A DNA stretch of 31,017 nucleotides from a virus: IMG/VR virus record IMGVR_UViG_3300036845_000682, positions 1 through 31,017 of that record; one strand, written 5' to 3'. The notes beneath the pieces are model-generated. The model was not told where the DNA came from and searched no databases. It saw only the letters and a program-made list of their open reading frames with translations. The translations under genes were made by a program, and so were the position numbers. Below are positions 2,569 to 26,345 of this stretch, one piece after another (the first letter of the stretch is position 1; every line of letters begins with the position of its first letter).

Positions 2569-3597
2569 CTAGCTCTTGGTGATGCTGGCGAGGCCGCGCG
2601 GGTTCAGGATGGACATGGCGACCATCTCGTCGAACACCCAGCCCTTCCAGAACGCCTCGACGTTGTGGTTCTCCTCAACATCCAAGGAGTAAAGGATGGG
2701 GAAAACGCCCAGGAAGTTCGGCTCCGGCGCGAGGAAGATCTTCGCCTGCGGGACGATGATGCTTCTCTGAATCTGGAATTCACCGAAGCTGGTGATGGTC
2801 TCGCCGGCCACCACCCGGTCCTTGAAGGCCCAGCCGGTCTGGTTGATGTCCCACCTGAACATGTCTCTGTAGTCGAACGGATTGATCAAAATCCGCGCTG
2901 ACGGCAGCTCATGCAGGTCGGTCATCGCGACCGCGGAGTACATCGAGCCGGGCGTCAGGTAGCCCGACGCCTCGGTGATGTTGTGGTTGGGGGTGACCAC
3001 GTGGTCCGGGCGGGTCGCGTAGTCCGTGATCGCGGCCTGCAGGAGCACCAGCAGCCGGGCGTCCTCCTGCTTCAGGATCGCCTGCTTGGTCTCGTCCTGG
3101 GCCTGCTCGACGGCGTTGATCCGCAGGTAGAAGAGGTCTTCCTTGCGGATCGCCGGGCGCGACGCGATCCGGAAGAACCGGACCGGGATGCGCTTGCCCT
3201 CGAACGGGGTCACGCGGACTTCGCCCTCAGTGCCGGACAGGATGTAGGCCTGCCCCAGGTCGTCCCAGACGTCGTACTCGACGGGGGTGCCCGGCGTCAC
3301 CGGGTCCTCGACGAGCACGTTCCGGACGATGCCCTGGTAGCGGAGCTTCAGCTGGATCGGGCCGACCATGCCGACGCCGAGACGGCGGAAGCCGTGCATC
3401 TCGTCGGACAGGATCAGCGCCATCTTGCGGACCTTGGCCTCGCGCGTCAGCGACTGGCCGCCCTGCCGGGCACGCCGTGCCTCGATCTGGGCGATGTAGT
3501 CGTCGCTCCTGCGCGCTGCCACACGCGGACGCAGGCCGCCGCCCTGCGGCGCCAGCGCCAGCTGTCCGCCAGCCGAAACGGTGGCCAGCTCGTTCAT
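2569..3597 (-). CDS. Major capsid protein, HK97-like fold
   Basis: A 342-residue protein with the layout of a tailed-phage major capsid protein. A helical N-arm spans about 30-66 (SDDYIAQIEARRARQGGQSL). A central domain follows (NVLVEDPVTPGTPVEYDVWD, FEGKRIPVRFFRIA). The C-terminal part carries ILINPFDYRDMFRW, GETITSFGEFQIQRSIIVP, FLGVFPILYSLDVEENHN and a terminal MSILNPRGLASI. The alternating GE..FG, P...F, LG and NPRG pattern is typical of the family. ATG 3597 has GGAAGGA upstream. It is the last gene of the head operon, after the protease, and is followed by a terminator. No long N-terminal scaffold is present, so scaffolding may come from the protease polyprotein. Confidence 0.8.
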   Translation of the reverse strand: MNELATVSAGGQLALAPQGGGLRPRVAARRSDDYIAQIEARRARQGGQSLTREAKVRKMALILSDEMHGFRRLGVGMVGPIQLKLRYQGIVRNVLVEDPVTPGTPVEYDVWDDLGQAYILSGTEGEVRVTPFEGKRIPVRFFRIASRPAIRKEDLFYLRINAVEQAQDETKQAILKQEDARLLVLLQAAITDYATRPDHVVTPNHNITEASGYLTPGSMYSAVAMTDLHELPSARILINPFDYRDMFRWDINQTGWAFKDRVVAGETITSFGEFQIQRSIIVPQAKIFLAPEPNFLGVFPILYSLDVEENHNVEAFWKGWVFDEMVAMSILNPRGLASITKS

Positions 3598-5276: not shown

Positions 5277-8200
5277 TCAGTAGAAGATGTCCGAGGCGTC
5301 CAGGTCGTCGGCTGCCATTGCGGCGGGCGCGTACTGCATCGCCCCGACCGAGGCCAGCGACGGAGCCTGGCGGGAGCCCTGCCGCTGGATCGGCCGCGCG
5401 GCCATCCGCTGGTCGGTGACTGGCAGCCCGGACAGTACCGCGATCTCGTGCTCGATCATCGGGGTGGACAGCCTGGCGTCCTTCTCGATCCGCTCGGCGA
5501 CCGTGATGTCCTCGCCCTGGGCGAGGCCCGCGGTGATCCGCAGCTTCGCCAGCCGGATCGAGGCGAACGTGCGGACTGCCGCGTCCGTCTCGTTCGGCGG
5601 CGCGAGGGACGCGGCGCGCTGGCCCTGACCCTGCTGCTGGCCACCCGGGCGGGCGTCCAGCATCCACGGGAACGCGGAGCCGTTGTCACCCTGGCCGCCG
5701 ATGCCCGGCCCGTGGGCCTTCAGCGGGTCCGGGTCAATCCGGACGTCGGTCTCGATGCGCCGCTGCTGCAGCGGCACGCCGCCGTCCTGGGACGGGTTGG
5801 TGCCCTGCACCGGGGCGGTGACGTCGATCAGGTTGGTGGCCGGCGGCGTCTGCAGTTCCACGCCCGGCGTGATCGACGTCGAGGTCTGCAGGGCGGGGAC
5901 GTTATCCATCGAACCCGGGGTGGCGCCCGGCCGCGACGGGTCGTCCTCGGTGTGGCCGGTGCCGCGCGGCGGCGCGCCGTTCTGCCCGGACCGGTAGCCG
6001 CTGCCGGACTGCAGCGCCTCCTCGGTGGTCTGCGTCGGGGGCGCCTCGGGCGGGTCCGGCACCGGGCTGGCCGGGTTCATCACGTCCGCGTAGCGGCGCA
6101 GGACGTTAGCCCGGATCGTGTTGAACTGCTGGTCCACTCCCGCCGCGGAGGCGAGGAAGCGCAGCTGCTCCCGGTAGACCGCGTTCTCAGCGGTCAGCTC
6201 GGCAATCCGGTGCGCCTGCGCCTGGGCAAGGGCGGCCCCCGTCTTGCTCGTTCCTGCTGGCATCTCTTCCTCTCCCTCGTCCTCTTCCTCGGGGTCGGAC
6301 GGGTCTTCTGCACCTTCTGGGGGGCCGCCGGGAGCTTCCAGCGGAACCAGGGCGGCCATCTTGCAGGCCGGGCAGGGCACACCCGGCTGGGCTGCCCCGT
6401 CGATCGCGAACTGGGCGCCGCAGGCCGGGCACTCCAGCTCGTCCTCCGGCTCCTGGGGCTCCAGCTCGTCTTCCTCGCCCTGCTGCTCCAGCTCCTGGCC
6501 CTGGGCCTCGTCCTCCTGGCCCTGCTGCTGCTCTTCTTCGCCCTGCTCCTGCAGCTGCTGCCCCTCGGCCTGCTCATGCTGGCCGTTCTCGGGCAGCGCG
6601 CCGTCGTCCTCGGGCTGCTCCTCGCCGGGCGGGGGCTCCTCGCCCTCCTCCGGCGGCTGGCCGTCGGTCTGCGGGCCGGGCACGGGACCGCCGTCGCCCT
6701 GCACGGCCGGGACCCCGTTGGGGGTCACCTGGTCGGGATGCAGGAGCTGGTTCTCGGCGTCGTCGCCGGACCCGATCTGGCCGTCCGGGCCGGTGCCGGG
6801 CGCGGTCTGCTGCGTCCCGTCGCCCGGAGTGACGACCTCGCCCTGCTGGTCGAGCTGGTCGCGGACCTCCTGGGCCTTGGAGGTGTCCGGGTCCCGGAAC
6901 AGGCTGGGCGGCACCACGAACCCGCACACCGGGCAGCGGTCGCCGGACCAGACGTCGTGCTCGCCGCAGACCGGGCACTCCTCCATGCGCAGCGTGTCCA
7001 CCTGGGGCGGCACCCGGGTCTCGCCGTAGGCCGTCTTGCGGACCGACATGGAAGACCGCAGTTCGTCTTCCGGGGCGAACATCCGGTAATCGTTCCGGAG
7101 CCGTTCCCCTACACCGCGGTGGCGATCATGCAGGAGTTCATAACCGCCCGGATCGTTCCTGGCGTCGTGCCCGCATCCCACGCACAGGTGCGGGATCTCC
7201 TTGTGGCGCGGCTCGGCGCCGGGCAGGCCCTCGCCGACCGGCTCGCCGCATCCGCTGCAGTAGTCGGGGCTAGCCGTCCACGCAGCCTGCTTCGCACCGC
7301 GGTGGTGCATGTTCTCCTCCGGGATCGCTCCGGGGTGGTGCTCCTTGTGGTGGTGCTCCCAGCGGGTCCTGGAGTTGTCGTGCATCTGCACGCGCCCCTT
7401 GCCGCCGCCGCCCTTGGCCCCGGACCGGTCCTCGTCCTGGTTCTTGCGGATCTGCCGCAGCCAGGTGGCGGCCTGCACCTGGTGCGGGCTGATCTTCCGG
7501 CCGGTCGCGCTGGACAGGATGTGCGCCGCCTCGCGGTAGGCCTGGGCGACGTGGTGGTAGTGCTGCGGCTGGTCGAGGGGGGCCTTCTGGCCTTCCTCCT
7601 TGGTCAGCCGGTGGCCGACCGCGACAGACAGGGCGTGCCGGTCCACGACGACCTTGTGCGTGCCGTTCTTCTCGTCCTCGGGGGTGTCGCCGCCGTGCTC
7701 GATCAGGTGCGCGAACGCCGACGTCTTCGACGCCTTCAGGACCTTCGAGTGGTGCTCGCCTGCCAGGATCCGCATCGCGGGCTTCTGCTGGCTGCCCATC
7801 GCGCCCGTGCCGGGACCGGGCGGGTCCCCCTGCGCGGCGCGGGAGGCGTTGAACATGTTGACCGGCCACGCGGTCTGCGGCGAGTAGGCGGACAGCAGGC
7901 CCGCGCCCAGCGCTGCATTCCCGCCTGCAATCCCCTTGGCCACGTGATGGGCGTCGGCATACCAGCGGTCGCCCAGGGACTTCTCGTCGTCGGTGGTGTC
8001 GTGGTAGGCGGCCACGATGTTCGCGGCGCTGACCGGGTGCTCCCTGAAGAACGGGTGGTCGCCGCCTTCGCGCCTCCTCGCCGCGGTGAACGGGTCGGGC
8101 GGCATCTGGTCCTCGTCTCCGCGGGGGCGCCGCGGCAGCGGGTGCCCGCTCAGCTGCTCGAACTGGCCGTGCAGGTGGTCGGCCATCTGGCGGCGCGCCT

Positions 8201-9461
8201 GGTCGTAGCGCGCCAGCTGCCCGGGGATCGAGGCGATGACGCCCTCGGGGTCGGCCGGCAGCGCGAGGTGGTCGCGCTTCATGCCGTCGTGGTGATGCCA
8301 GCCTCCCGAGGCGGTGCCGGCCGCGTGCAGGTTGATCCTGACCTGCTCACCGCAGGCCAGGCAGTGCGTACCGCCGTAGGTGCAGTTCCGGCGGCAGTCG
8401 CCGCCCTGCATCCGCCCGGCGTGCGGCTGGTCCAGTGCTGCGGTCTTCGACGACATGGATCGCCGGACGTTATCCCCGGAGTCCCAGTGGCGCATCTCGC
8501 CCGGCATTCCGGCGTCTGTCGCGTAGCCGGCCTCCGAGGGACGCCCTTGGTAGCCGCCCCTGTCTCCGGGGTAAATCGAATGCGGTTTGCCCGGGGTGCC
8601 CGTGAGGACGCCGGACTCGTCGAGCGGACCGATCGCGCAGTTCATGCACAGGCCGGGGTAGCCGTGGTGCACCCAGTCGCCCGGATGATGAGGCGCTTCC
8701 TCGGGCTTCTGCAGAAGGACGCCGCAGTTCATGCAGTGCGTCGGCTGGCTGCTGAACTGGGCAGGCTCCCTCGAAGCCGCCTTGCCGAGGCCGCGGGCAT
8801 CCGGCTTGCCGAGGAAATACGCCGTCGGGTCGGCCGGCTCCTCGACGAGCAGCGAGTTCTCGAAGAACGACAGCCCGGCGCAGATCTCGTGGATCAGCCG
8901 CTCCTCGACCTTCCCCGTCTTGGGGTTGGTCTTGCGGATCTTCTTGCCCTTCATGGCGGGCAGGTGACGGCAGTACTCGGCCGGGGAGGTGGCCTTGTTG
9001 CCGCACGCCGAGCAGCGCGACCACTCGACGTCCACGCCCATCGAGGTGCGGTTGACCTTGCCTGCGAGGATCGCCCTGGCCAGCTTCGGGAACCGGACGG
9101 CATCGACCTCCATCAGGCCCTCGACCCAGAGGTCCGGGGTCCCGTCCGCGTTCCGGTCGCGGTGCAGCGCGACCGCCACGATCACGCCTCTCGCTCTCCT
9201 GTGATTGGCGTTGTGGTGGTTCACGAAGACCGGCTTGCCGAGGAACGTCTTGTAGCCGGCCTCGATCTCCCGGGCCGGGAACGTGTCGTGGTTGTCGTTG
9301 GTCCGGGAGGAGATCATCCTCGACCGGACGTACAGGTAACCGGCCCGCGGGGAGTAGTCGAACTCGACCCGGTGCGCGGACTTGCGGATCGCCGCTTGGC
9401 CTGCCTGGGCGGGAACGCGCCACGCCTCAAGGACTTGCAGGCTGGCGTACTTGCGCAGCAA
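5277..9461 (-). CDS. Capsid maturation protease polyprotein, 1394 aa
   Basis: Residues 30-216 look like a prohead protease of the T4 gp21-like serine type: RTNDNHDTFPAREIEAGYKT, then GKPVFVNHHNANHRRARG (candidate catalytic His), then KVNRTSMGVDVEW with the conserved Ser140, then a C-x2-C...C-x-H metal knuckle (150-166). Residues 481-615 form an embedded conserved domain (NIVAAYHD, then WYADAHHVAKGIAGGNAALG, LLSAYSPQTAWPVNMF and VVVDRHA). CxxC zinc ribbons occur near 243-275, 356-370, 735-763, 829-846 and 1011-1033. An acidic Gln/Glu segment (about 937-1012), a coiled coil (about 1075-1105) and a helical C-terminus could serve as scaffold. The start is TTG 9461, behind GGGAGGTGGGCA. It is far longer than ordinary proteases of this type. 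Protease assignment is from motifs; roles of the other modules are unknown. Confidence 0.7.
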   Translation of the reverse strand: MLRKYASLQVLEAWRVPAQAGQAAIRKSAHRVEFDYSPRAGYLYVRSRMISSRTNDNHDTFPAREIEAGYKTFLGKPVFVNHHNANHRRARGVIVAVALHRDRNADGTPDLWVEGLMEVDAVRFPKLARAILAGKVNRTSMGVDVEWSRCSACGNKATSPAEYCRHLPAMKGKKIRKTNPKTGKVEERLIHEICAGLSFFENSLLVEEPADPTAYFLGKPDARGLGKAASREPAQFSSQPTHCMNCGVLLQKPEEAPHHPGDWVHHGYPGLCMNCAIGPLDESGVLTGTPGKPHSIYPGDRGGYQGRPSEAGYATDAGMPGEMRHWDSGDNVRRSMSSKTAALDQPHAGRMQGGDCRRNCTYGGTHCLACGEQVRINLHAAGTASGGWHHHDGMKRDHLALPADPEGVIASIPGQLARYDQARRQMADHLHGQFEQLSGHPLPRRPRGDEDQMPPDPFTAARRREGGDHPFFREHPVSAANIVAAYHDTTDDEKSLGDRWYADAHHVAKGIAGGNAALGAGLLSAYSPQTAWPVNMFNASRAAQGDPPGPGTGAMGSQQKPAMRILAGEHHSKVLKASKTSAFAHLIEHGGDTPEDEKNGTHKVVVDRHALSVAVGHRLTKEEGQKAPLDQPQHYHHVAQAYREAAHILSSATGRKISPHQVQAATWLRQIRKNQDEDRSGAKGGGGKGRVQMHDNSRTRWEHHHKEHHPGAIPEENMHHRGAKQAAWTASPDYCSGCGEPVGEGLPGAEPRHKEIPHLCVGCGHDARNDPGGYELLHDRHRGVGERLRNDYRMFAPEDELRSSMSVRKTAYGETRVPPQVDTLRMEECPVCGEHDVWSGDRCPVCGFVVPPSLFRDPDTSKAQEVRDQLDQQGEVVTPGDGTQQTAPGTGPDGQIGSGDDAENQLLHPDQVTPNGVPAVQGDGGPVPGPQTDGQPPEEGEEPPPGEEQPEDDGALPENGQHEQAEGQQLQEQGEEEQQQGQEDEAQGQELEQQGEEDELEPQEPEDELECPACGAQFAIDGAAQPGVPCPACKMAALVPLEAPGGPPEGAEDPSDPEEEDEGEEEMPAGTSKTGAALAQAQAHRIAELTAENAVYREQLRFLASAAGVDQQFNTIRANVLRRYADVMNPASPVPDPPEAPPTQTTEEALQSGSGYRSGQNGAPPRGTGHTEDDPSRPGATPGSMDNVPALQTSTSITPGVELQTPPATNLIDVTAPVQGTNPSQDGGVPLQQRRIETDVRIDPDPLKAHGPGIGGQGDNGSAFPWMLDARPGGQQQGQGQRAASLAPPNETDAAVRTFASIRLAKLRITAGLAQGEDITVAERIEKDARLSTPMIEHEIAVLSGLPVTDQRMAARPIQRQGSRQAPSLASVGAMQYAPAAMAADDLDASDIFY

Positions 9462-9484: not shown

Positions 9485-9495
9485 CCCTTCCGGGG
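9485..9495 (-). promoter_or_regulatory. CCCGGAAGG leader element
   Basis: Minus-strand CCCCGGAAGGG, about 24 bases before the TTG start of the protease gene. It can form a three-pair stem closed by GGAA. A separate Shine-Dalgarno (GGGAGG) lies nearer the start, so this element is additional. It is one of about seven similar leaders in the window. Confidence 0.5.
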
Positions 9496-9517
9496 TGACC
9501 GGGTGACGGGCGCTACG

Positions 9518-9790: not shown

Positions 9791-9792
9791 GG

Positions 9793-10329
9793 TCAGTCCT
9801 CGTAGCGCGGCAGGCTGTCTACGTAACGGCGCACGCCGTCCGGGTCGTCATCCATGATCGCCCGCATGCCGCGGACGAGGGTCGGCGGGTCGCCGGGGTC
9901 GCCGAACTGCCAGGCGTGCGGGCCGGTGATGGCCACGGGACGCGGCAGGGGAGGCGGAAGCAACGGCAGCCGTGACGGCGCGGGCGCATCGGCCCAGGGC
10001 GGCTGCTGTTCGGTGACCAGGCTCGTGCGGGGCACCGGCTGGAGGTAGGGCAGGCCGACGGTGACGACCGGGGGATAATCCGCGGGCTCCGGTTCGCCCT
10101 TCAGGTACTGGATGAAGGTCTGCCCCTCAGGGTCCTCGTCGTTGCCGGACCAGATCCCGGGGTCGCGGCGCCACATGGCGCGGATGCTGCCGACCCTGCG
10201 CAGCAGCGTGGTCCATGGCATCTGCCTGGGCTCGGGCATGATGAACTCCGGTTCCCGCGAGAAGATGACGTACAGGGCCAGGGCCAGGAATGCCGCAGCC
10301 AGCCACGAGTTGAGGCCAGGGACGGTCAT
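9793..10329 (-). CDS. Single-pass membrane protein, 178 aa
   Basis: ATG 10329 is preceded by GAGAGGA. Residues 5-24 (GLNSWLAAAFLALALYVIFS) form a transmembrane segment or uncleaved signal. The rest is proline-rich and presumably soluble (LPLLPPPLPRP near 120-131), ending in an acidic helix (MDDDPDGVRRYVDSLPRYED). It is in the head operon, 26 bases after the DUF6011 gene. No enzymatic motif is seen. A role at the membrane or in the virion cannot be told apart from sequence. Confidence 0.6.
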   Translation of the reverse strand: MTVPGLNSWLAAAFLALALYVIFSREPEFIMPEPRQMPWTTLLRRVGSIRAMWRRDPGIWSGNDEDPEGQTFIQYLKGEPEPADYPPVVTVGLPYLQPVPRTSLVTEQQPPWADAPAPSRLPLLPPPLPRPVAITGPHAWQFGDPGDPPTLVRGMRAIMDDDPDGVRRYVDSLPRYED

Positions 10330-10355
10330 GAGGTCCTCTCAGGATGGTAGGACGG

Positions 10356-10937
10356 TCAGCTCTTCTTGTTACGGCAGACCTTGCCTTTGCCGACGCGCCG
10401 GGACTCTTCATCGGTCAGCGCGAGACCGCAGTCACTGCAGCGCTTCAGCTCGGCAGCGAACAGCATCGCCGCCTCTTCCAGGCCGTATTCTACGATCGCC
10501 TGCAGGGCGAGCCGCTTCTGCATGTTGCCCAGGTCAACGGTGCGCATGCTGTCGCCATCGCCGCCGCCGAGGACGCGGACCGGGAAGGCGAACCCTTCCC
10601 ACTTGCCCTTGCCCGGGTCAACGCGCCAGAAGTCGTAGTCGTTGTGCCCGGTCCGGGACGGGGTGGCGTAGTAGCCCTTGGGGACGAGGCCCTTGAAGTC
10701 ACCCAGCCGCGGCGGGACGGATGAGGCAGCCTCAGCCGGAGCCTGTGCCGGGGTGATCTTCCCGCACTTATCCAGGTGGTTGAGGACCATCAGGGCAGCG
10801 GGGACGGTGAGCCTGCGGCTGCCGTCAACCATGTCCTTCGTCAGGTGGTGCGCCCGGTACGGCGCGATCCGGGCGATGTCCGCCATGAGGCGGTCTACGG
10901 CCTGGTCCTCTGTCCGGTCCTCCGTCATCACGGTCAT
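10356..10937 (-). CDS. DUF6011-type zinc protein, 193 aa
   Basis: The C-terminus reads CSDCGLALTDEESRRVGKGK followed by VCRNK, which fits the C-x2-CG-x-x-LTD-x-x-S...G-x-G...C signature of DUF6011, a small zinc domain frequent in actinobacterial and phage proteins. The middle contains a conserved-looking segment (NDYDFWRVDPGKGKWEGFAF) and the N-terminus is helical. The start is taken as ATG 10937; ATG 10928 is an in-frame alternative, and the ribosome binding site is only fair for either. It is the first gene after promoter copy 3, with a leader of about 30 bases, and so heads the transcript that continues into protease and capsid. The molecular role of this family is not known. Confidence 0.75.
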   Translation of the reverse strand: MTVMTEDRTEDQAVDRLMADIARIAPYRAHHLTKDMVDGSRRLTVPAALMVLNHLDKCGKITPAQAPAEAASSVPPRLGDFKGLVPKGYYATPSRTGHNDYDFWRVDPGKGKWEGFAFPVRVLGGGDGDSMRTVDLGNMQKRLALQAIVEYGLEEAAMLFAAELKRCSDCGLALTDEESRRVGKGKVCRNKKS

Positions 10938-10973
10938 CCCTGCTCTTCCCCTGGCTCGTCTGTTCCTGAGGCA

Positions 10974-11002
10974 ACTTTAGCAAGAAAACCTGTATTGCGC
11001 AA
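10974..11002 (-). promoter_or_regulatory. Spacer-conserved promoter, copy 3
   Basis: Minus-strand TTGCGC (-35), spacer AATACAGGTTTTCTTGC and TAAAGT (-10, extended TGC). It drives the DUF6011 gene and, because no terminator is seen until 2565, probably the whole head operon. Here the start codon is about 36 bases downstream of the -10, so this copy is not leaderless. Confidence 0.75.
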
Positions 11003-11015
11003 TCCGGGAGGGAGC

Positions 11016-11026
11016 ACCCGGAAGGT
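11016..11026 (+). promoter_or_regulatory. CCCGGAAGG leader element, plus strand
   Basis: ACCCGGAAGGT lies 14 bases before ATG 11041. It can fold as ACC-CGGAA-GGT; relative to the CCC/GGG copies the outer pair is changed on both sides. The Shine-Dalgarno GGAGGT follows separately. Confidence 0.45.
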
Positions 11027-11040
11027 ACAGGAGGTACCCC

Positions 11041-11589
11041 ATGCCCAGCCTGCTCCCCGGCGACCTCGTGGTCGTCCGCACCCCCGGGTTCTTCGCCTGG
11101 ATCATCCGGCTCGGCCAGATGCTCCAGGGCAAGCCCGACCTGCGCAACCACGTCGCGATGCTGCACCACACCGTCAACGGGGTGAACTGGTACCTGGAGG
11201 GCCGTCCCGGCGGCCTCGGGTGGAAGGCGTTCAAGGTCACCGACGATGCCTACCTGAACTCGCCGTGGACCGTCACCAACGCCGCGCAGCCGAAGACCGA
11301 CGGCCAGCGCGAGGCCGTGTGCGCCGCGATGCGCAGGCTGTTCGGGGCGCCCTACGACTGGGGCGCGATCGACGCTGACGCGGCCAGCGCGCTGCGCCTG
11401 CCGGACTGGTGGGCGAAGTGGGGCAGCAGCAGCGTTATGCCCGGCCACGTGGTGTGCAGCTCCTCGGCCGCCTGGGCCTACCCCCAGGGCGGCCTGGCCG
11501 CCCCCGAGGTGGACGGCGGCCGGATGACGGAGCCGGCCGACTGGGACGAGTTCATCATGGAGCGGGCGTGGTCGAAGGCGGCTGCTTGA
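11041..11589 (+). CDS. Permuted NlpC/P60-like papain-fold enzyme
   Basis: A 182-residue protein with the element order of the circularly permuted NlpC/P60 (YiiX/YaeF-like) group. GDLVVVRTPG is followed by RNHVAMLHH (candidate catalytic His37), then WYLEGRPGGLGWKAF (acidic residue and glycine turn), YDWGAID (about 105-111), and lastly HVVCSSSAAWAY with candidate nucleophile Cys139. These enzymes cleave peptide or amide bonds, often in cell wall peptides, or act on lipids. There is no signal peptide. It has a strong GGAGGT site. It stands alone on the plus strand beside minus-strand membrane protein genes, which suggests a lysis or cell-wall role. A virion-associated enzyme or host-envelope modifier is possible. 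Confidence 0.7.
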   Translation: MPSLLPGDLVVVRTPGFFAWIIRLGQMLQGKPDLRNHVAMLHHTVNGVNWYLEGRPGGLGWKAFKVTDDAYLNSPWTVTNAAQPKTDGQREAVCAAMRRLFGAPYDWGAIDADAASALRLPDWWAKWGSSSVMPGHVVCSSSAAWAYPQGGLAAPEVDGGRMTEPADWDEFIMERAWSKAAA

Positions 11590-11974
11590 AGTCGCTTTCC
11601 TCGGAATGAGACCTCGGCTCGTCGTCGGCCAGACCGAGCCTTTTCATCACGCCATGGACGACCGGCTCGTAAAGCAGCCAGGTGATGTGCACGAGCGCCA
11701 GCGGCACCAGGATGAACACGATGATGGTGAACCACTGGTAGAAGACGCTCGTATAGCTGATACCGAACATAAGGTGCAGCGTGAACGGCAGCAGGATAAA
11801 CCCGATGGCGACCCGCAGGACGAACAGGTTCCATCCCATCTGGTAACGCCACCAGCGGCGCATCACCGTGTAAGAGATGCCGAAAAACAGCGAGACCAAG
11901 CAGGTTGCCGTGGTCAGGAAGTTCTTTAGCCCGAGCGGGACCACTTGTGTCACCGCGGCGGCCACTGTGTGCAT
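11555..11974 (-). CDS. Three-pass membrane protein, possible holin
   Basis: I chose ATG 11974 because GGGGGAG lies just upstream; the longer reading from 11989 has no ribosome binding site and overlaps the preceding gene. The 139-residue protein has hydrophobic segments at about 8-36, 51-74 and 79-104, including VLRVAIGFILLPFTLHLMFG and WFTIIVFILVPLALVHITWL. A charged, proline-containing cytoplasmic-type tail follows. Its position with two other small genes behind the giant gene and next to the papain-fold enzyme would suit a holin or other lysis membrane protein. The last 35 bases overlap the end of the plus-strand enzyme gene. Holin activity is inference only. Confidence 0.55.
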   Translation of the reverse strand: MHTVAAAVTQVVPLGLKNFLTTATCLVSLFFGISYTVMRRWWRYQMGWNLFVLRVAIGFILLPFTLHLMFGISYTSVFYQWFTIIVFILVPLALVHITWLLYEPVVHGVMKRLGLADDEPRSHSEESDFKQPPSTTPAP

Positions 11975-11976
11975 TG

Positions 11977-12204
11977 CTATCTCCCCCATAGCGCGTTCTG
12001 GGCCAGGACGGACAGGTGATTGACCTTCACCCGCTCGTCGCGAAGCGGGCCGGTCACCGTCCGGCTCTCGTGCGCGAGCAGTTCACGCTGCAGGCGCAGG
12101 TCTTCCTGGGCCTGGCGACCACTCGCCTCCGTAACTTCCCGGGCGCGGGACAGCTCGGCCGGATGTGAGAAGCCTGTTCTCCGAAGCTTCTTCCACCACC
12201 GCAT
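11977..12204 (-). CDS. Small charged helical protein, 75 aa
   Basis: ATG 12204 lies six bases after the upstream stop; GGAG is rather far away, so coupling is likely. The protein has a basic aromatic N-terminus (MRWWKKLRRTGF) followed by a long charged helix (ELSRAREVTEASGRQAQEDL), which may form a coiled coil. The next gene starts two bases after its stop. It could be a membrane-surface partner of the neighbouring membrane proteins. No family is recognised. Confidence 0.5.
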   Translation of the reverse strand: MRWWKKLRRTGFSHPAELSRAREVTEASGRQAQEDLRLQRELLAHESRTVTGPLRDERVKVNHLSVLAQNALWGR

Positions 12205-12210
12205 TTCAGA

Positions 12211-12612
12211 TCACGCTCCAATAGCACCAGGCCTATCGGCAGACCGCAGCCCGTCGATAAGGGCCTTGGTCACCTTGGCCGCCTCTACTCCGGCATCAGC
12301 ACGCTGGCCGGCAAGTTCCAGGGCCGTCCTGGTAGCTGCGTGTGCATCACGCTCGTGCTCGTATAGCCGCTTCCATTCAAGGCCGTCGGCGACGGCCTTG
12401 TCGTACACCCTCCTGGTAACGATCCAGTCGAACAGGAAGGCGACCACCCACAGGCCGGCCACCCCGGCGATCGTGAGCAGGTTGTACCAGAAGCTAAGGT
12501 CGCTGACGGCCACAGTTCCCGCGGCAACGACATGAACCGATGCAGGGTCCGGGGGAATGCGCGCAGCCAGGATGGTAAGGTCTGCGGCCTTCCCGGAAAG
12601 CTCATCGATCAC
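12211..12612 (-). CDS. Single-pass membrane protein with coiled coil, 133 aa
   Basis: It starts at GTG 12612, overlapping the upstream stop as GTGA. An extracytoplasmic-type N-terminus precedes one transmembrane helix (about 41-66, SFWYNLLTIAGVAGLWVVAF) that ends in basic residues (TRRV). A long charged helix follows (EWKRLYEHERDAHAATRTAL). This one-helix-plus-coiled-coil layout is seen in small phage membrane proteins encoded beside lysis genes. A holin-like or anti-holin-like role is plausible but unproven. Confidence 0.55.
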   Translation of the reverse strand: MIDELSGKAADLTILAARIPPDPASVHVVAAGTVAVSDLSFWYNLLTIAGVAGLWVVAFLFDWIVTRRVYDKAVADGLEWKRLYEHERDAHAATRTALELAGQRADAGVEAAKVTKALIDGLRSADRPGAIGA

Positions 12613-12842
12613 CTGTTCCCCCAGCGCGCAAACAGGAGAGCTGCGTGCTCGGCCGTGCCATCAGACTGCACCCAGGCGCCCCGCCCCGGCCACACAACCG
12701 CCGGTACCGTCTCGCCGAACACGCGCTCCAGAGAGTCGAGGATTTCCTGGCCATCGAGAGCGCACGGAAGGAACACCCCACGGCTGCCAAACGGATCGCT
12801 GGCCGCGATCTGCTCAGTAGTCATCTCCTCCATGCAATACAC
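12609..12842 (-). CDS. Unknown small protein, 77 aa
   Basis: GTG 12842 was preferred because AAAGGGAG sits six bases before it; the in-frame ATGs at 12833 and 12824 are worse placed. The gene begins 13 bases after the giant gene's stop. The protein (GSRGVFLPCALDGQEILDSL, then ETVPAVVWPGRGAWVQSDG) looks like a small alpha/beta fold with a short terminal helix. I do not recognise it. Confidence 0.5.
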   Translation of the reverse strand: MYCMEEMTTEQIAASDPFGSRGVFLPCALDGQEILDSLERVFGETVPAVVWPGRGAWVQSDGTAEHAALLFARWGNR

Positions 12843-12855
12843 CGTTGGCTCCCTT

Positions 12856-15800
12856 TCAGACAGTGATGACGTCATCTTCGTAGTCGTCGAGGGAGACCCC
12901 GCGCCGGGCGAGGTCATCGTCCTCTTCTTCGTAGTGCGTGCCTTCGAGCCGCAGCATCGCCAGGTTGCGGGCGCGCTGGCCGCGTCCCTCGGCAATCAGC
13001 TCGGCGGCCTCCTTGTCCGGCAGCACGTCGGCAGTCTTGGACAGGAACTGGCGGGCAGCGGAGGCGATATCCCCGTCGGAGGCCTGGCCGCCAGCTCCCG
13101 GACCGCCTCCGTTGTACAGCTGTGCGCCCGCGGTGCGCTGGAAGGCGGCCACGATGTCGTCCATCGAGCCCTGCGCGTCGCCCGGCTCAGCCGTGATCTC
13201 ATCGGAGTCTGAGCCGCCGCCGGACCACTGCTGCTGGCCGATGGTCTGGATGGAGGGGTCACTTGGCGACAGCGGGTCGTCCATCGAGCCCATGCCGGGC
13301 TGCTGGCTCATCACCGACGGGTCCTGCGCCTGGTCTGTCAGGCCCTCGGCCGCGGACTGATCGCCCATCGCGGTGGCGGTCGCCTCGATATCGTCCTCGC
13401 CGGTCGTCGAGGGCAGCGCCGCCTCGGGCTCGTCACGCAGCTCGGATCGTGCGCCGAACACCGGGTCAATCGGTCCCTCGTGCGCATGGTAGTGCCCGGC
13501 ATCGGGGATGCTCTCGTCGTCCGGCTCAGGCGGACGCGGCTCTCCGCCCTGGTCCCGCCACGGATTGATGCCCTGGGTGGCTTCCCAGTGGTGGGCGTCG
13601 CGGTGCAGCGGCACGTTGACGCCGGGTGTCGCCGCGATGTCTTCCGGCCTGTACCCGTGGTCGATCCGCAGGTGCTCGGCCAGGCGGTCCGGGTCGCCCT
13701 CGTAATAAGCGTTGTGCTCTTCCTCGGACGGGTGGTCGCGCTGCTGCTCGGCATAGAACCTGGGCGCCCGCTCTCCTGTCCGGATGGCGCCGAACACCGG
13801 GTCGATCGGGCCGTTGTGGGGAGTCCACCGGGCAGGGTCCCTGTATGCCATCCCTTCAGCTCCGCGCTCAGGACGGTGGTCAAGAGACCGCGCGTGCGCC
13901 CAGCATTCAGCGTGGTAGTCCGCGCCGTTGGTCTCCCGCCGGACGTCGCCGAGTACATCGTTTTCGGGATGACCGCAGAGAACGCAGGTGGAAGAGGTAC
14001 CGAGCGCCTCCTCCATCCGGATGCCGTTCGGGTCCCGCGGGCTGATCGAGGTGGACGGTCCCCCGGTCGCCGACCGGTCGCTGTAGGGGAAGCTCTCCTG
14101 GTTCTCCTGGGCGGGCTCCCAGCCGTTCATCTCCGGCCAGTGCACGTCACCCGGCACCGGCCGTACCGAGGCCTCGTTGGTCAGCGGCGCCTGGAAGATG
14201 CTGTCCTCCTGGATGCCGCCCCAGTTCTCCGGGTCCGGCCCGGACAGCGGACCGTATGAGGCGGGGCTCTTGTCCGGGTCGCGCGGCTGGGTGGCGCCGT
14301 ACGGCTTGCCCGGCGGGCGCTGCGCCACGTTGCTCGATCCCCATGGCGCGTTTGCCTGGTCGGCAGTGACCTGCAGCCCGGCCAGCTGCGCGAGCGCGAT
14401 GATCTCGCCCGGGTCCTCCCCGGCGGCGGTCAGGGCCGCGGTCGCCCGCTGGGCCGGGGTCAGACCCAGGGCGTGCGTCCAGCGGTCCCGGCGGTCGTTG
14501 AGCGGGAACTCGTCCGGGTCGTAGGCGGGCGGCTGGGTGTGCGCCCCGCGCCCGCCGGACTGCGCGTGGTTGTACTCGGCCTGGCCGGCGACGTCCGGCA
14601 CCGACCAGTACTTCATCCACCCGGCGTACGGGTGCGCGTGGTGCGTGTTGATCTCCGGGAACGGCTCCCGGTAGTTCGACCACCAGCTGTTCCCCTCGGC
14701 GGTGCGCACTCCGTGGTTGATCCAGGCCCGGTTAGTGAGCGCGTGCTTGTAGAGGTCGTCCATCATCGCCGAGCCGACACCCTGCCCTTCGGCAGCATGG
14801 GTGTGCATGTTCTCGACGCTGAGCGCCTTGCCGTCGTCGCTCTGGCTGAAGTGGATCTGCCCGGCGAGCTTCGGTCCGAGGTAGCCGTTGAGCACGTGCG
14901 TGGCCCTGGCGTTCGAGTTGTGCTGCTCGCCCGGGTCGAAGTGCGGGTTCTCCTCGACCTCGGAGTAGAACGTCCTCGGCCGCGAGTAGTGCAGCGACTC
15001 GGCGATCCGGTCCGGGCCGCGCATCTCGCACGGTCCGCCGTGCTTGTAGTGGCAGCGCAGCCCGATTGGATCGTTATGCCGGCTGTTCTCGCGGAACGGG
15101 AGCCGGTCGCGGAACTCGCGGGTGCGGCCTTCGTCGCCCAGCTCGTAACGCTGCTCGACGGGCGTGCCGCCGCGCTGGTCAACGGTGAACGTGCGCTCCG
15201 GCTCGAACATGGCCGGCCAGTGCCGCTCGGCGGGTAGCCCTTCCTCGGTGTCGTGCTGGTGCTCGACCCGGCCGGCTACTCCGCTCTCGTCGCCGTGCTC
15301 GTCGTCGTGGACCTGCTCCATCCGGTCGGCCGCGTACGGGCCGCCGATCGTGTTCGTGTCGAAGCCGTGATGGTGCTCCAGGTGGCTGCGCAGCCAGTCG
15401 ATGTCCGGCGAGACCTCCATGAAGGTCGCGGTGCGCAGGCTCGCCGACGGGGCCAGCCACGTCTGCGACCAGCCCTGCGGGGTCCACGGCGGCATCGACT
15501 TGACGACGACCTCGTGGTTGGCGATGCCCGGGTCGGCGCTCATCTCGCGGCCGAACATGGTGCGGGCCTGCGCCTCGAACTGCAGCGCCATCACGTGGCT
15601 GCACGGCCGTCCGGCGTACCGGGTGCCGAGGCTCTTGTCCTGGTGGAAGGATGCCCAGGGGCAGCCGCACGCCCAGTGCTGGATGGTCTGCGGCTTGTGC
15701 GGCGGTCGCTGGATGCCGGTCTCGTACACGTCGTGGTCGCCGCTGACGGCGCCGATCACCATGCCCGCGCTGGCGTGGGTGATCCGGACCCGGCCCTCCT

Positions 15801-18618
15801 TGCGAATCCGCCGGGCCTTCGCGATCACGTCGGTCCACGCCGCGGTGAACTCGAACCGGAACCGCGGGTCGCGCGACGCTGCTACGAAGGCGCCCAGGTG
15901 GGCCTTGATCTCCAGCTGGATCTTCTTGCCCGAACCATCCGGGTCATCAGGGTCGTTGGTACCACCGGAACCAGGGGCACCATTCTCACCGTCCACCCCG
16001 GCCGGAGCAGGAGGCGGAGGCGGCGGCGGGAACTTACGGCCGCCGTTCCCGTCCTCGCGTCCCTGGGTGTAGGCAGGGCCGCCCTCGTTGACCGGGGCGC
16101 CCGCCATCGGCCACGCCTGCGGCGGGACGGGCGCGTCGGCGTCGTCGAGATCGTCGTGCGCCTCGGGGAACTCCTCGTCGCCCTCGGCCGGGCCTGCGTC
16201 GAGGGAGCTGGTGTCGTCGTCGTGCGGGTGCGGCGGGTCGAGCGCGCTCATCATGCGCCGGAACCGGGCCGGGTCGCGTTCCTGGATCACGTCAGGGTGG
16301 ACGGGCGGCCTGGCCGGGGCTGACCGGATGATCCCGATCATCGGGTCTTCCCCGGACGCGCCGCCGTTCGACGGCCACGCCAGGCTCTCCCCGGGGAACC
16401 CGTGCTTCCCCTTCTGCGTGGTGACGTCCCGGCCGAACATGCCGTTCAGGGCGTCTTCGTGCCGCTGGTCCCGGAGGTCCTGGTCCTCCGGCCGCCCGGC
16501 GTGCGAATGGGCGGCCATCCCCGCGTCGTGCAGGGCCTGGTGCATGTCGGAGAAGCGGTCGCCGCGCGCCCGGGTGTGCTCGAAGTTCTGCTGGTCCCAG
16601 CCGTGGACCTCGTGCAGGTGCCGCGCCCAGTCGTCCTCGCTGGCTGCCTCGCGGCTGAAGCTGAGAGTGTGCTCGAACCGGCCGCGCCCCCCGCTGGCAT
16701 GCTGTCCCGGGTCAGCTTCCCCTGCCCACCGGGAGTACGCCTCGTCGAACGGCGCCAGCTCCATCGGCCGCCCGGCGTGCTCGGGCCGGCCGCCAGGAGA
16801 TCCTTCCCAGTGCCTCTCGTCGAAAGGCTGCTGGCTGACGCCCTCGTCTTCTTCGAGTTCATCGCTGCCCGGGGAGTCCCAGGCAGCGACCGCGGCCTCG
16901 GCCTGCATCTCCTCGACCGCGCCGGGGAGAGACTCGTCGGGCGGGGTCTTGTTGGTGAAGTGGGTCCGGTTCACGAAGTCGCCCCAGCCGGCCGTCGGGG
17001 CGCCGTCCCAGCTGTGCAGCTCGGTGCGCTCCTGGCCGGTCCACGGCACGTGCCGGGAGCCGAACACCGGGTCGTGGTAGCCCGGCGGGATATCGTGCTG
17101 ATGCTCGGTGCCGCGCAGGTCAGCAGTCTCTCCGCTGTGCAGCCGGTCGTGCACCCCGATCATGAACCGGGCGGCCGGGTTCTTGTCTCCGCTGTAGGTG
17201 ACGCCGTGGTGCTCCGCCATGTGGCTCATCAGCTCGCCGAGCGACCGGGGCCGCTCCACGTAGGGGACGTGGTGCACGGTGGCCGCGGTGTCGTCGTCCA
17301 CGCCGCGCTCGTTCGGAGCCTCGGCATCGTCCTCGTCGTAATCCCTGGCACGGCCGTGGTGCTCGCCGTCCTGGAAGGCGTACCGGGCGTGCTCGTTGTT
17401 GTGCTCGCTGGCCATCTCCCCTGGCGCAGTGCCAGGGTGCAGGTGCATGCCGTGCTCGTGTGCCAGGTGGCCCTGCAGCTCGCTGGCGTCCATCAGCCGT
17501 CCGTGTGCCAGCCGCGTGTCACCGTGCCAGTCGTCGAGGGACCTGCCCTGGCTCACCCTAGTGTGCGCCAGCGTGAGTTCCGGGGCGTAGGTGTGCCAGG
17601 CGCGCAGCCGCATGTCCGACAGCTGGGCGGGGGTGACGCCGTGCTCGGCCATCAGGTGCTGCTCGGTGGCGTGCGTGCCCTCTGCCTGGTCGTACATGTG
17701 CGCGGTGAACGCGCCGATCTCCAGCCCGGGACCGCCGCCGGCCGATATCCCCTCCGGGTACATGCCGACCGCGGCGCCGTTCTTCTCCTTCGCCTGCGGG
17801 TCGTCCTGGCCCGACCAGCGGGGGTCGCCGTCGCCCTCGGTGGAGCGGTCGTCATAGCCGTCCGGGTTACTGGCGCGCGGGACGGTGCCGTGTCCCGGCG
17901 CGTCGCCGTGCTCATCGACCTGCGTGCCGTTGATCGTGGTGGCGTGCCGGTGCGCTGGCACGCCCTCCTGGCGCACCGTGCCAAAGAAGTGGCGCGCCTC
18001 CTCCATCTGTGCCAGCCGTGCCAGCACGGGCGAGTCCATCGCGGCGGCCCAGGGCGGCGGGGGCGCCGGCTCCTGGGGCTCGTTCTCGTTCGTCCACGCC
18101 TGCTGGCCGGGCTCGGCCCAGTACATGCCGGTGTCGCCCGCGCCGCCGTTGTAGTCCTCTTCCCGCGGGTCTTCCTGCCCGCGGTAGCTGTGCGAGGCCG
18201 CGGTCTTGCTCAGGCCGCCGATGACCCGGTGCAGCTGGCCGGGGTCGGGCCGGTCGGTCAGCACCGTGCCCATCTCCGGGTAGTCGTCGGAGGCCAGGTG
18301 GATCTCGGATGCCTCCGCCTCGATCGCCGCGGTGATCCCGGCGGGGAGAAGCCCTGCCGGGACCGGGGAAGTGGAGCCCCGGAAGTCAGCCGGGATCGGC
18401 CGCAGCTGGGAGGCCATGTAGGTGCCCTGTCCCATGCCGCCGTCGAGCACGATCTCGTACTCGGTGACGCCCGGGGCATGAGAGGCGACCACGAACAGCA
18501 CCCTGCCGGGGAGCCCGTCGATGGTCTGTACCCGGTCGCCGGTCCTGAACGGGGTGTCGAGCGCCCCTTCGTGGACCTGGGACAGCCTGGTCGAGTGCTT
18601 CGTGATACGCCGCGCCAT
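12856..18618 (-). CDS. 1920-aa mosaic protein: His repeats, SWIM, GNAT
   Basis: Residues 22-76 resemble a small SH3-like barrel (FRTGDRVQTIDGLPGRVLFV). A four-histidine motif, H-x4-H-G then H-x3-H after 16-20 residues, occurs at 384-410, 466-494, 667-697, 1079-1108 and 1649-1676, with a degenerate copy at 321. A SWIM zinc finger lies at 983-1008 (C983, C985, C1006, H1008). Residues 1235-1310 resemble a GNAT acetyltransferase, with AAEGQGVGSAMMDDLYKHA as the acetyl-CoA loop. A CVLC...H...C finger is near 1545-1575. DPVFG[AS] recurs at 516, 1606 and 1718. Linkers are acidic and proline-rich. ATG 18618 has GGGAGGAGG upstream. It opens an operon that ends with putative lysis genes. It may be a virion or injected internal protein, but the function is not known. 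Confidence 0.65.
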   Translation of the reverse strand: MARRITKHSTRLSQVHEGALDTPFRTGDRVQTIDGLPGRVLFVVASHAPGVTEYEIVLDGGMGQGTYMASQLRPIPADFRGSTSPVPAGLLPAGITAAIEAEASEIHLASDDYPEMGTVLTDRPDPGQLHRVIGGLSKTAASHSYRGQEDPREEDYNGGAGDTGMYWAEPGQQAWTNENEPQEPAPPPPWAAAMDSPVLARLAQMEEARHFFGTVRQEGVPAHRHATTINGTQVDEHGDAPGHGTVPRASNPDGYDDRSTEGDGDPRWSGQDDPQAKEKNGAAVGMYPEGISAGGGPGLEIGAFTAHMYDQAEGTHATEQHLMAEHGVTPAQLSDMRLRAWHTYAPELTLAHTRVSQGRSLDDWHGDTRLAHGRLMDASELQGHLAHEHGMHLHPGTAPGEMASEHNNEHARYAFQDGEHHGRARDYDEDDAEAPNERGVDDDTAATVHHVPYVERPRSLGELMSHMAEHHGVTYSGDKNPAARFMIGVHDRLHSGETADLRGTEHQHDIPPGYHDPVFGSRHVPWTGQERTELHSWDGAPTAGWGDFVNRTHFTNKTPPDESLPGAVEEMQAEAAVAAWDSPGSDELEEDEGVSQQPFDERHWEGSPGGRPEHAGRPMELAPFDEAYSRWAGEADPGQHASGGRGRFEHTLSFSREAASEDDWARHLHEVHGWDQQNFEHTRARGDRFSDMHQALHDAGMAAHSHAGRPEDQDLRDQRHEDALNGMFGRDVTTQKGKHGFPGESLAWPSNGGASGEDPMIGIIRSAPARPPVHPDVIQERDPARFRRMMSALDPPHPHDDDTSSLDAGPAEGDEEFPEAHDDLDDADAPVPPQAWPMAGAPVNEGGPAYTQGREDGNGGRKFPPPPPPPAPAGVDGENGAPGSGGTNDPDDPDGSGKKIQLEIKAHLGAFVAASRDPRFRFEFTAAWTDVIAKARRIRKEGRVRITHASAGMVIGAVSGDHDVYETGIQRPPHKPQTIQHWACGCPWASFHQDKSLGTRYAGRPCSHVMALQFEAQARTMFGREMSADPGIANHEVVVKSMPPWTPQGWSQTWLAPSASLRTATFMEVSPDIDWLRSHLEHHHGFDTNTIGGPYAADRMEQVHDDEHGDESGVAGRVEHQHDTEEGLPAERHWPAMFEPERTFTVDQRGGTPVEQRYELGDEGRTREFRDRLPFRENSRHNDPIGLRCHYKHGGPCEMRGPDRIAESLHYSRPRTFYSEVEENPHFDPGEQHNSNARATHVLNGYLGPKLAGQIHFSQSDDGKALSVENMHTHAAEGQGVGSAMMDDLYKHALTNRAWINHGVRTAEGNSWWSNYREPFPEINTHHAHPYAGWMKYWSVPDVAGQAEYNHAQSGGRGAHTQPPAYDPDEFPLNDRRDRWTHALGLTPAQRATAALTAAGEDPGEIIALAQLAGLQVTADQANAPWGSSNVAQRPPGKPYGATQPRDPDKSPASYGPLSGPDPENWGGIQEDSIFQAPLTNEASVRPVPGDVHWPEMNGWEPAQENQESFPYSDRSATGGPSTSISPRDPNGIRMEEALGTSSTCVLCGHPENDVLGDVRRETNGADYHAECWAHARSLDHRPERGAEGMAYRDPARWTPHNGPIDPVFGAIRTGERAPRFYAEQQRDHPSEEEHNAYYEGDPDRLAEHLRIDHGYRPEDIAATPGVNVPLHRDAHHWEATQGINPWRDQGGEPRPPEPDDESIPDAGHYHAHEGPIDPVFGARSELRDEPEAALPSTTGEDDIEATATAMGDQSAAEGLTDQAQDPSVMSQQPGMGSMDDPLSPSDPSIQTIGQQQWSGGGSDSDEITAEPGDAQGSMDDIVAAFQRTAGAQLYNGGGPGAGGQASDGDIASAARQFLSKTADVLPDKEAAELIAEGRGQRARNLAMLRLEGTHYEEEDDDLARRGVSLDDYEDDVITV

Positions 18619-24047: not shown

Positions 24048-26345
24048 CTACCGGCCAGCGGGAACGTACTTGCCGTAGTCGAGCAGCTCTTCATCGTCCT
24101 CGGTGACGCCGAGACGCGACCGGATGCCCACATGGGCCGGGGTCTGGTAGGCGGGGAGCGCCGGGCCGGACACCCAGCCGCCGCCGTGCTGTGCCTCGGC
24201 CTCCGACTCGGCCAGGTGCGCTTCCATCCGGAAGCCGGGGATCTCGACGGTGCCCCCGTCGGCCGCCTCGACCGTGATCTTCGGGAGCTGCTCGGCGGTC
24301 GCCTCGTTGATCTCCCGGGCCAGCGCGGCCATCCGGCGGACCCGCTCGGCCCGCCTGAACAGCGCGCCCTGCTTCGGCATGGCCGGCTTCCTGCGCGCGG
24401 CCTTCGGCATGGAGTCACGCTGCTCGTCGGATTCCGGCGGGCGCTGCTCCATCTCTTCCTCCTCCAGGCCGGGCTGCGGCCCGTCGCCCTCGGGCGGCGC
24501 GTTCGGGTCGGCGTCCGGGTCCTGCGCCATGGCCATGTCGTCGGGGGTGGGCGCCAGGTCCGGCAGGGTGGGCGGCACGATGCCCATCCGGTCGATCATC
24601 AGCTGATCGGCGGCGATCGCCGGGGGCACGCCCTCCTGCTGGGCCATCGGCGCGAAGTCGGCCATCAGGTCGGACGGGACCGGCAGGCCCTCGTTGCGCA
24701 GCTCGATGAACGCCTGGCGGCGGGTCCGGGCCTGGGCGATGATGTCGGCGACGGCCTCGTCCTGGGAGCGCTCGCGCTCCTCGTCCAGGTCGATGCCGAG
24801 CCCGCGGGTGCGGGTGCGCGCCGAGATGGGAACGCCGCTGGCCCGCACCGCCTCGGTGAACTGCCGGGTGGTGTCCTCGTCGCGGAAGTTGAGCACGGCC
24901 ATCTCCAGGTCGGGGACCAGGAGGGCGGGCTGCTCGGTGATGCGCCGCTCGCCGGTCTCCTCGTCGATCTCCAGGACCTCTTCCATCTTCACGAAGCGGC
25001 GGCCGTTGCGCTCCTCGTAGTCGTAGTGCTCCTGCGCCTCGGCGACGATCAGGGCGCGCTGCCGGAAGTGCCGCTTGAGGTACTTCTGGTACTGGGTCAT
25101 CAGCTGCTCAACGAGCTGCTTGTTCAGCGCGTCCGCGGCGTAGGTCTCGCCCGAGTCGGCGCCCATCAGGAAGGTGCGCGACAGCCCGAACACCTGCAGA
25201 ACTCTATCCTCAATTCTTTCGAAATCAGGTGTCAGGTCAGGCATGTTCTCGCGCCCGAAGACCGGCTGGATATCGACCGCGAAGTTGTGGATCAGGGCGC
25301 GGAAGTCGCCGGCCAGGGCAGCATCAAGTGCCAGTTCGAAGTTCTCAAGGTCGTCGTCTGTGGGGATCCAGGGGACCTCGGTTCCGAGGTCAGTCGCGCT
25401 TGCCCCGAGCTTGCAGAGAATGAGAGGCGTATAGAGCCGGTCTGCAATGGAATCCAGTGCGGTGTTGAGCATCTCCTGCTGGAGCATGGACCGCATGGCC
25501 CGGGTGAGCAGCGGCAGTCCCCTGAGGTTGAATGTGTCACCCTTGAAGCGCAGCTGCTTGAGCAGGACGTTGGACACCGGCATGAAGGCGTTCTCGGCCG
25601 TGTAGGCGGCCAGCTCGGGATACTCCTGGATGAGCTTGTTGTACTCCCAGGCCGGCTGGCGGGTGGTCAGGATCTGCCGGATCGTCCAGGGCAGCCGGAT
25701 GAAGTACCTGGGCTCCTTCAGGAACGGGGATCGCTCCACCTTGATGTCGTCGGGGTTGAGCAGCTCCTCGTCATCCCAGATGCCGAGGTCCTCGTTGAAG
25801 GTGGCGAACGGCCACGCCTCGCCGGAGGTGTAGTACTCCCGGCCGATGTCCACCAGGAACTCGCCGTAGTCCAGGCCGTCCTCGTCGAAGAACAGCCCCT
25901 CGTAGAACTCGGTCAGCCGCTCGTCCTTGCACTGCAGGTGAGCGCCGATCACCGGGAACTTGGAGAAGATGTCCACGCAGGACCCGACGATCGGGTCGGT
26001 CTGGTACAGCAGGCGGCAGAACGCCCGGACCTTCGCCAGCTCCTCGTTCTGCGAGAAGTCGTAGGGCAGGTTGTTCTGCCGCCAGTAGAACAGCGGGTCG
26101 CGCGGCCGACCGGTAGCGAACTGGATGTCGGAGAAGCCGGATCCCCCGGCGCCGCCCGTGCCGAAGCTGCCCTGGCGGCGGCCGAGCATCGCGGTGCGCC
26201 CGTTGATCCGCCGGTTCTTGCGGGCCTCTTTCACCTCGTCGGTCATCTGGTCATCGCGCAGGCCGCGGGCGCCGAACGCGAACCCGCGCGACATCGCCGC
26301 CGTGTGCGGGATCGCGCCCTGCCCGGACTTGTAGACGACCCTCAC
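24048..26345 (-). CDS. Portal protein
   Basis: A 765-residue protein. The core (about 85-440) has portal features: DPLFYWRQNNLPYDF, RAFCRLLYQTDPIVGSCVDI, LVDIGREYYTSGEAWPFATF, and ERIEDRVLQVFGLSRTFLMG leading into ADSGETYAADALNKQLVEQL, like the conserved stem and wing region before the clip. The C-terminal part is acidic and proline-rich (about 590-650), with a helical segment after it. Portals form a dodecameric ring at the capsid vertex that DNA passes through. It starts at GTG 26345, overlapping the small zinc gene's stop as GTGA. A stretch at about 25190-25550 uses much less GC-biased codons than the rest, suggesting an exchanged segment. Confidence 0.85.
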   Translation of the reverse strand: MRVVYKSGQGAIPHTAAMSRGFAFGARGLRDDQMTDEVKEARKNRRINGRTAMLGRRQGSFGTGGAGGSGFSDIQFATGRPRDPLFYWRQNNLPYDFSQNEELAKVRAFCRLLYQTDPIVGSCVDIFSKFPVIGAHLQCKDERLTEFYEGLFFDEDGLDYGEFLVDIGREYYTSGEAWPFATFNEDLGIWDDEELLNPDDIKVERSPFLKEPRYFIRLPWTIRQILTTRQPAWEYNKLIQEYPELAAYTAENAFMPVSNVLLKQLRFKGDTFNLRGLPLLTRAMRSMLQQEMLNTALDSIADRLYTPLILCKLGASATDLGTEVPWIPTDDDLENFELALDAALAGDFRALIHNFAVDIQPVFGRENMPDLTPDFERIEDRVLQVFGLSRTFLMGADSGETYAADALNKQLVEQLMTQYQKYLKRHFRQRALIVAEAQEHYDYEERNGRRFVKMEEVLEIDEETGERRITEQPALLVPDLEMAVLNFRDEDTTRQFTEAVRASGVPISARTRTRGLGIDLDEERERSQDEAVADIIAQARTRRQAFIELRNEGLPVPSDLMADFAPMAQQEGVPPAIAADQLMIDRMGIVPPTLPDLAPTPDDMAMAQDPDADPNAPPEGDGPQPGLEEEEMEQRPPESDEQRDSMPKAARRKPAMPKQGALFRRAERVRRMAALAREINEATAEQLPKITVEAADGGTVEIPGFRMEAHLAESEAEAQHGGGWVSGPALPAYQTPAHVGIRSRLGVTEDDEELLDYGKYVPAGR

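Follow-up and report, generated by a model that had tools for sequence, protein, structure and literature searches.

The window, that is, the whole stretch of 31,017 nucleotides analysed here, covers 31 kb of the genome of a large myophage-like virus whose relatives include cluster C mycobacteriophages as well as phages of Gordonia and Rhodococcus. The head genes of the window follow the order portal, carrier (a 1920-aa protein), head maturation protease and major capsid protein, which matches the annotation of Rhodococcus E3, Stormageddon and Pupper. The features of the locus are as follows.

2569..3597, minus strand: major capsid protein (phrog_2522, E 2e-98), with 95-98% identity to its counterparts in the closest relatives
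5277..9461, minus strand: head maturation protease with a long tail that includes zinc-ribbon and DUF7178 segments (phrog_18299, E 5.7e-21; DUF7178, E 2e-35)
12856..18618, minus strand: carrier gene (1920-aa protein, ATG start), between the portal and head maturation protease genes; homologue of Myrna gp96, Blubba gp85 and the Rhodococcus E3 'LysM-like' gp76
13480..13710, minus strand: module copy 5 (residues 1637-1713; HLRIDHG..HRDAH, with HYHAH 32 residues on); weak profile match
14731..14961, minus strand: GNAT-like acetyltransferase insert (residues 1220-1296), weak in the window and above the cut-off in relatives L011, L014 and L019
15241..15420, minus strand: module copy 4 (residues 1067-1126; HLEHHHG..HDDEH..HQHD)
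15547..15900, minus strand: conserved region with CxC...CxH (SWIM-like; residues 907-1024), also present in cultured actinophages; phrog_2940
16489..16656, minus strand: module copy 3 (residues 655-710; HLHEVHG..HQALH..HSHA), the top match to the family profile (E 3e-21)
17089..17262, minus strand: module copy 2 (residues 453-510; HMAEHHG..HDRLH..HQHD)
17347..17505, minus strand: module copy 1 (residues 372-424; HLAHEHG..HNNEH..EHH), with a degenerate tail
17563..17694, minus strand: degenerate copy (residues 309-352; HLMAEHG without HxxxH)
24048..26345, minus strand: portal protein (phrog_2833, E 5e-137)

The 'tape measure' label given to Myrna gp97, the neighbour of the carrier, was rejected, because the homologue in the window has a maturation-protease N-terminus instead. 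Relatives of the capsid protein with 77-82% identity are found in Streptomyces assemblies (L183 and L184, contigs of 152 and 157 kb), which hints at Streptomyces-like hosts, and in a contig of a gammaproteobacterial MAG (L182), which is probably misbinned.

The sequence-only reading had singled out a repeated histidine pattern in the carrier, and a pattern search of the ORF recovered exactly five copies of H[LM]-x3-HG-x(15-19)-H-x3-H, at residues 384, 466, 667, 1079 and 1649, along with the degenerate HLMAEHG at residue 321, which has no HxxxH behind it. With 111 His among 1920 residues (5.8%), shuffling of the overall composition gives 0.001 expected copies per protein, and local shuffling in blocks of 40-100 residues, which keeps the local His density, gives 0.004-0.007; more than one copy was never reached in 2000 shuffles of either type.

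The module contains six conserved His, not four. An H-x-H element, overlooked in that reading, lies 6-11 residues past HxxxH in copies 2, 3 and 4 (HQHD, HSHA and HQHD, respectively); in copy 1 this third element is HH only and in copy 5 it is the distant HYHAH. Using a profile restricted to the first four His, which left H-x-H outside the search pattern, we gathered 54 units, 39 of which have H-x-H within 25 residues, versus a background of 10% per 25 aa. In an alignment of 45 units, the two H-x-H positions are occupied by His in 38 of 45 and 38 of 44 units, with the element absent or replaced in about one quarter of all units, as well as in window copies 1 and 5. The commonest spacing is H-x4-H-(20)-H-x3-H-(6)-H-x-H. 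Thus defined, the six His are invariant or near-invariant amid approximately 25% identity between units, and in units at 35-90% identity His is the best-conserved residue (84%), followed by W (62%) and G (59%). Besides His, the aligned units have no conserved Asp, Glu, Lys or Arg, and the module is strongly acidic (mean net charge -6.4). The proposal that the kept spacing reflects a metal-binding or folding constraint stands insofar as the spacing constraint is real and homologues conserve the His; metal would be the most economical reason for it.

Scans of IMG/VR yielded 14 distinct carrier homologues, 12 of which hold one to four units in varying combinations, one to three being present in most and none in some. 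The His are conserved in these homologues; a lack of such conservation was an outcome that the sequence-only reading had named as refuting its proposal. Close relatives are 95-98% identical to the window in the major capsid protein and 72-82% in the portal, versus 41-58% in the carrier. The slot between VGMYPEG and RVPWT spans 23-28 aa without a unit (six proteins) and 95-120 aa with one unit (seven proteins); its length is 188 aa in L008, and in the window, where it holds two units, it reaches 239 aa. These spacings indicate that the unit behaves as a cassette of approximately 75 aa that is gained and lost. The module is, accordingly, an interchangeable cassette, cleanly inserted in or absent from the slot while the capsid protein stays nearly constant. 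None was found in the carriers of eight cultured relatives (Myrna, Blubba, E3, Finch, Stormageddon, Pupper, Skog and Phabba); since these phages make the carrier without the module, the latter is not essential to head assembly.

Residues 907-1024 of the carrier match phrog_2940 (E 1.3e-23), the Cluster C/E3-like 'LysM-like' family, and other linkers of the protein hold enzyme inserts. Besides GNAT in the window, L011, L014 and L019, a GDSL lipase/acylhydrolase domain is inserted in the carriers of L008 and L016 (E 1e-16 and 5e-18, respectively), and an Arr-type rifampin ADP-ribosyltransferase occupies residues 132-245 of the L019 carrier (8944-13545; Pfam E 1.4e-10). The Arr insert is flanked by two RRTA motifs, and the otherwise near-identical L014 has one RRTA and no insert. 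The arrangement resembles an enzyme carried as cargo between two copies of a processing site. By eye, ParB-like (GDGHHR..) segments were also noticed in the carriers of L003 (8001-12665), L014 and L019, and an ADP-ribosyltransferase-like segment in that of L003. The window carrier further contains a Cys-rich segment, CVLCGH...YHAECW (13909-13986, minus strand; residues about 1545-1570). In the linker comparable to that of this segment, L003 and L019 have other Cys-rich motifs, suggesting that zinc-type modules of unrelated kinds are tolerated at this place. Cys-type ribbons fill a comparable linker, from GIRMEE to ALPSTTG, in carrier homologues.

When whole virus records were scanned with the profile, the units proved not to be confined to the carrier: in the same phages, they are present in other giant ORFs, in a zinc-ribbon protein next to the portal and in a protein of about 100 aa. 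In the window, the zinc-ribbon-like protein adjoining the portal (26515-27123, minus strand) is without the module; its relatives in L024, L026 and L030 are longer and have a six-His module at the end. Several of the unit-bearing giant proteins contain 6-11% His, and in a related phage a 1557-aa protein with 11.1% His (L167, 1751-6421) carries several weak modules.

We also searched 2.9 million viral contigs with a DNA pattern that fixes the exact six-His spacing, using as a control the same pattern put out of frame by two bases. The search produced 11 stretches, versus one for the out-of-frame control. Most of them lie in known carriers; one belongs to a new carrier homologue (L196) and another forms a free-standing ORF of 58 aa on the contig of an unrelated phage (L193, 1115-1291). 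Three of the 11 (L194, L198 and L199) represent one related frame and were set aside as unconvincing. A looser pattern matched 87 stretches, 41 of them in frame, and placed modules at the C-terminus of proteins of about 300 aa (the L240 family), at the N-terminus of proteins of about 140 aa (L215 and L246), in 200-aa proteins (L231 and L269) and inside a Peptidase_S78 prohead protease (L229; Pfam E 3.7e-13). In the L240 family, a ParB-like segment, recognised by eye, is joined to the C-terminal six-His module. Among the unrelated proteins, the position three residues before the first His, which is outside the pattern, is hydrophobic in 15 of 19 cases (p 1.5e-7), versus 2 of 19 for a neighbouring control position. 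Because a hydrophobic core position is thus conserved beyond the pattern, these units most probably represent the same domain rather than chance matches.

Searches with the module against Pfam, NCBIfam, PHROGs, PDB sequences, Foldseek PDB, VIA-align and BFVD returned nothing convincing; matches to phrog_6646 were weak and led to one known unit at E 0.009. Searches of cultured phages by tblastn with five module sequences and eight whole relatives were negative or at chance level. The module was not found in three phage-bearing assemblies, nor in 396 genomes of the Streptomyces phylum, where 16 candidates per genome were scored, which makes the latter a weak negative. Thus, although small metal-binding domains are known, an all-His, all-helical cassette domain of approximately 50 residues among head proteins is new and unlisted in Pfam, NCBIfam and PHROGs.

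Copy 3 was modelled with AlphaFold2, with the alignment of 45 units as input. The model (mean pLDDT 85.4, pTM 0.71, core above 90) is all-alpha, with three helices (9-20, 24-33 and 37-46) and no beta-hairpin, rather than beta-beta-alpha, the arrangement that the earlier comparison with a zinc finger had implied for a single unit. H15 and H20 are located on helix 1 and H41 and H45 on helix 3; confidence is lower for the H-x-H tail. Instead of a hairpin, the first His pair occupies a helix whose end is the conserved Gly. The AlphaFold2 model of copy 4, of moderate confidence (pLDDT 71), likewise consists of helices only. On a helical wheel, H41 and H45 share one flank, and H15 and H20 fall on opposite flanks of the hydrophobic face, approximately 140 degrees apart. 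This placement does not guarantee a single four-His site, and H-x4-H within one helix makes a non-ideal chelating pair. The six His could form one site or two.

The gene neighbourhood and a short motif bear on the fate of the carrier. In 15 carriers the motif [KR][ST]A occurs 72 times, where 23 are expected and permuted motifs give 17-36; 12 protease proteins contain it 51 times (14-31 for permuted motifs), and six capsid proteins only once between them. This motif (often KTAA or RTAA), enriched two- to threefold in the carrier and protease proteins, is a candidate cleavage motif. Relaxed [KR][ST]A-like sites precede 17 of 43 units, versus a background of 17%, a suggestive excess, although many of these units are orthologous and hence not independent. 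Judging from the motif statistics, the carrier is probably cleaved at [KR][ST]A sites, with the head maturation protease (5277..9461) as the probable processing enzyme; gene order and the same statistics suggest that the carrier is packaged as well. The scarcity of such sites in the capsid proteins counts against this reading of the motif.

Taken together, we regard it as reasonably likely that the repeat is a metal-binding, six-His folding module, carried as a cassette in a prohead-internal, protease-processed and packaged carrier, whose beads are ejected with the DNA. Each repeat would be an autonomously folding module of approximately 45-60 residues, with helix 1 ending in H-L/M-x3-H-G, a variable short stretch of helix or loop, helix 3 with H-x3-H and a C-terminal H-x-H, and the six His would coordinate one or two transition-metal ions, most likely Zn2+, clipping the helices together. 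Actinobacterial phages would insert the cassette, once or several times, into linker-like segments of the prohead-internal carrier and its neighbours. The carrier would enter the head together with the adjacent head maturation protease, which would probably cut it at [KR][ST]A sites. The modules would survive as small, metal-stabilised beads that may follow the DNA through the portal and tail in unfolded form and afterwards refold or dock, either in the head or in the host. The module might, perhaps, serve as a docking element or a protease-resistant spacer. Metal binding is probable given six conserved His at chelating spacings, the lack of another explanation for their invariance at approximately 25% identity, and the Cys-type motifs in the comparable linker of homologues.

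The strongest competitor, which we nevertheless deem improbable, is that the His are not ligands but part of a hydrogen-bonded or pH-sensitive interface of a helical docking domain that contacts a common head partner, such as the scaffold, portal or capsid. This would account for the presence of modules in several head proteins of one phage and is in keeping with the acidic charge, which argues against nucleic acid binding and for protein contacts. However, near-invariant His at metal-like spacings (HxxxH and HxH) in units this divergent are hard to explain without metal, as are the Cys-type ribbons between GIRMEE and ALPSTTG. Alternatively, the module might be a metal reservoir or chelator that loads the head with Zn, Ni or Cu, to neutralise DNA or to bring metal to the host. 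Although there are up to five copies per protein and the His content of several giant carriers of units is high, we find this unlikely, because most homologues have one to three copies and some have none, and the fixed spacing and hydrophobic core exceed what a metal sponge needs.

More doubtful still is the proposal of the sequence-only reading, a true C2H2-type finger with both Cys replaced by His, in which four His would form one tetrahedral site in a beta-beta-alpha fold. H-x4-H followed by G, and L-x2-H, do look like the helix end of C2H2 fingers, and there are weak PDB-sequence matches to ZBTB7A and CTCF (E 2.7-9). However, the fold is rejected on prediction, both models being helical and devoid of a beta-hairpin; furthermore, six His are conserved, no Cys-containing intermediate exists at those positions among the aligned units, and zf-C2H2_15 is touched by just one of 45 members (E 0.077), which does not amount to a convincing zf-C2H2 match. 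A small metalloenzyme domain (nuclease or hydrolase), transported as cargo in the manner of the GNAT, Arr and GDSL inserts, would fit the real enzymes found in the same carrier, but is highly improbable for a tandemly repeated unit of about 50 residues that has no conserved Asp, Glu, Lys or Arg and no match to an enzyme family. Finally, a chance product of His-rich low complexity, the only pointer to which is the His content of the carrier, has a negligible probability, being ruled out by both the global and the local shuffles and the out-of-frame DNA control scan and contradicted by conservation in homologues.

If the metal-binding six-His module is real, a domain of about 50 residues, occurring as an insert, a terminal part or stand-alone in many uncultured phages, would constitute a new metal-binding family and a handle to recognise head-internal phage proteins. 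All-His structural metal sites are rare; in a PDB survey of Zn-CysxHisy sites, the His4 class was too rare for statistics (PMC5053137). More tentatively, one can envisage a phage-wide all-His metal domain that moves as a cassette among capsid-internal polyproteins, in which beads, enzymes (Arr-type ADP-ribosyltransferase, GNAT, GDSL and ParB-like) and Cys zinc ribbons are strung between protease sites, and the processed pieces are injected into actinobacterial hosts. The module thus raises a concrete question: do large actinophages package modular, protease-processed effector carriers?

Several known systems offer partial parallels. Like C2H2 fingers, the module is a small repeated unit with L-x2-H and an HxxxH/HxxxxH-G helix end, keeps its spacing while the linkers vary, and has both His pairs mapped to predicted helices, as for H-x3-5-H in the fingers. 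Unlike them, it is without Cys, has six His, is predicted to be all-helical and has no convincing profile match; as for the C-x2-4-C of the finger, no Cys is present at the first-pair positions in 45 units and no strand in the two models. With the HHCC N-terminal domain of retroviral and retrotransposon integrases, the module shares a layout of three short helices in which helix 1 bears His and the second ligand pair follows after approximately 20 residues. However, the module has HxxxH on a helix where the HHCC domain has CxxC, plus H-x-H; the second-pair C-x2-C is replaced by HxxxH in all units, and no sequence or Foldseek match connects the two. The 'LysM-like' carriers of cluster C mycobacteriophages and of Gordonia and Rhodococcus phages (Myrna gp96, Blubba gp85 and E3 gp76) have the same gene position and CxC...CxH region, but the cultured versions are without the module, whereas the window protein is far longer, with GNAT and module inserts. 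A further parallel might be with T4 Alt and internal proteins and the ejection proteins of SPN3US and phiKZ: in T4 and SPN3US, internal head proteins are processed and ejected, and such head-internal proteins are cut by the prohead protease, sometimes at several sites, and leave with the DNA (PMC5694885). Compared to these, the carrier, if it is processed and ejected, would be a polyprotein-like counterpart with swappable modules.
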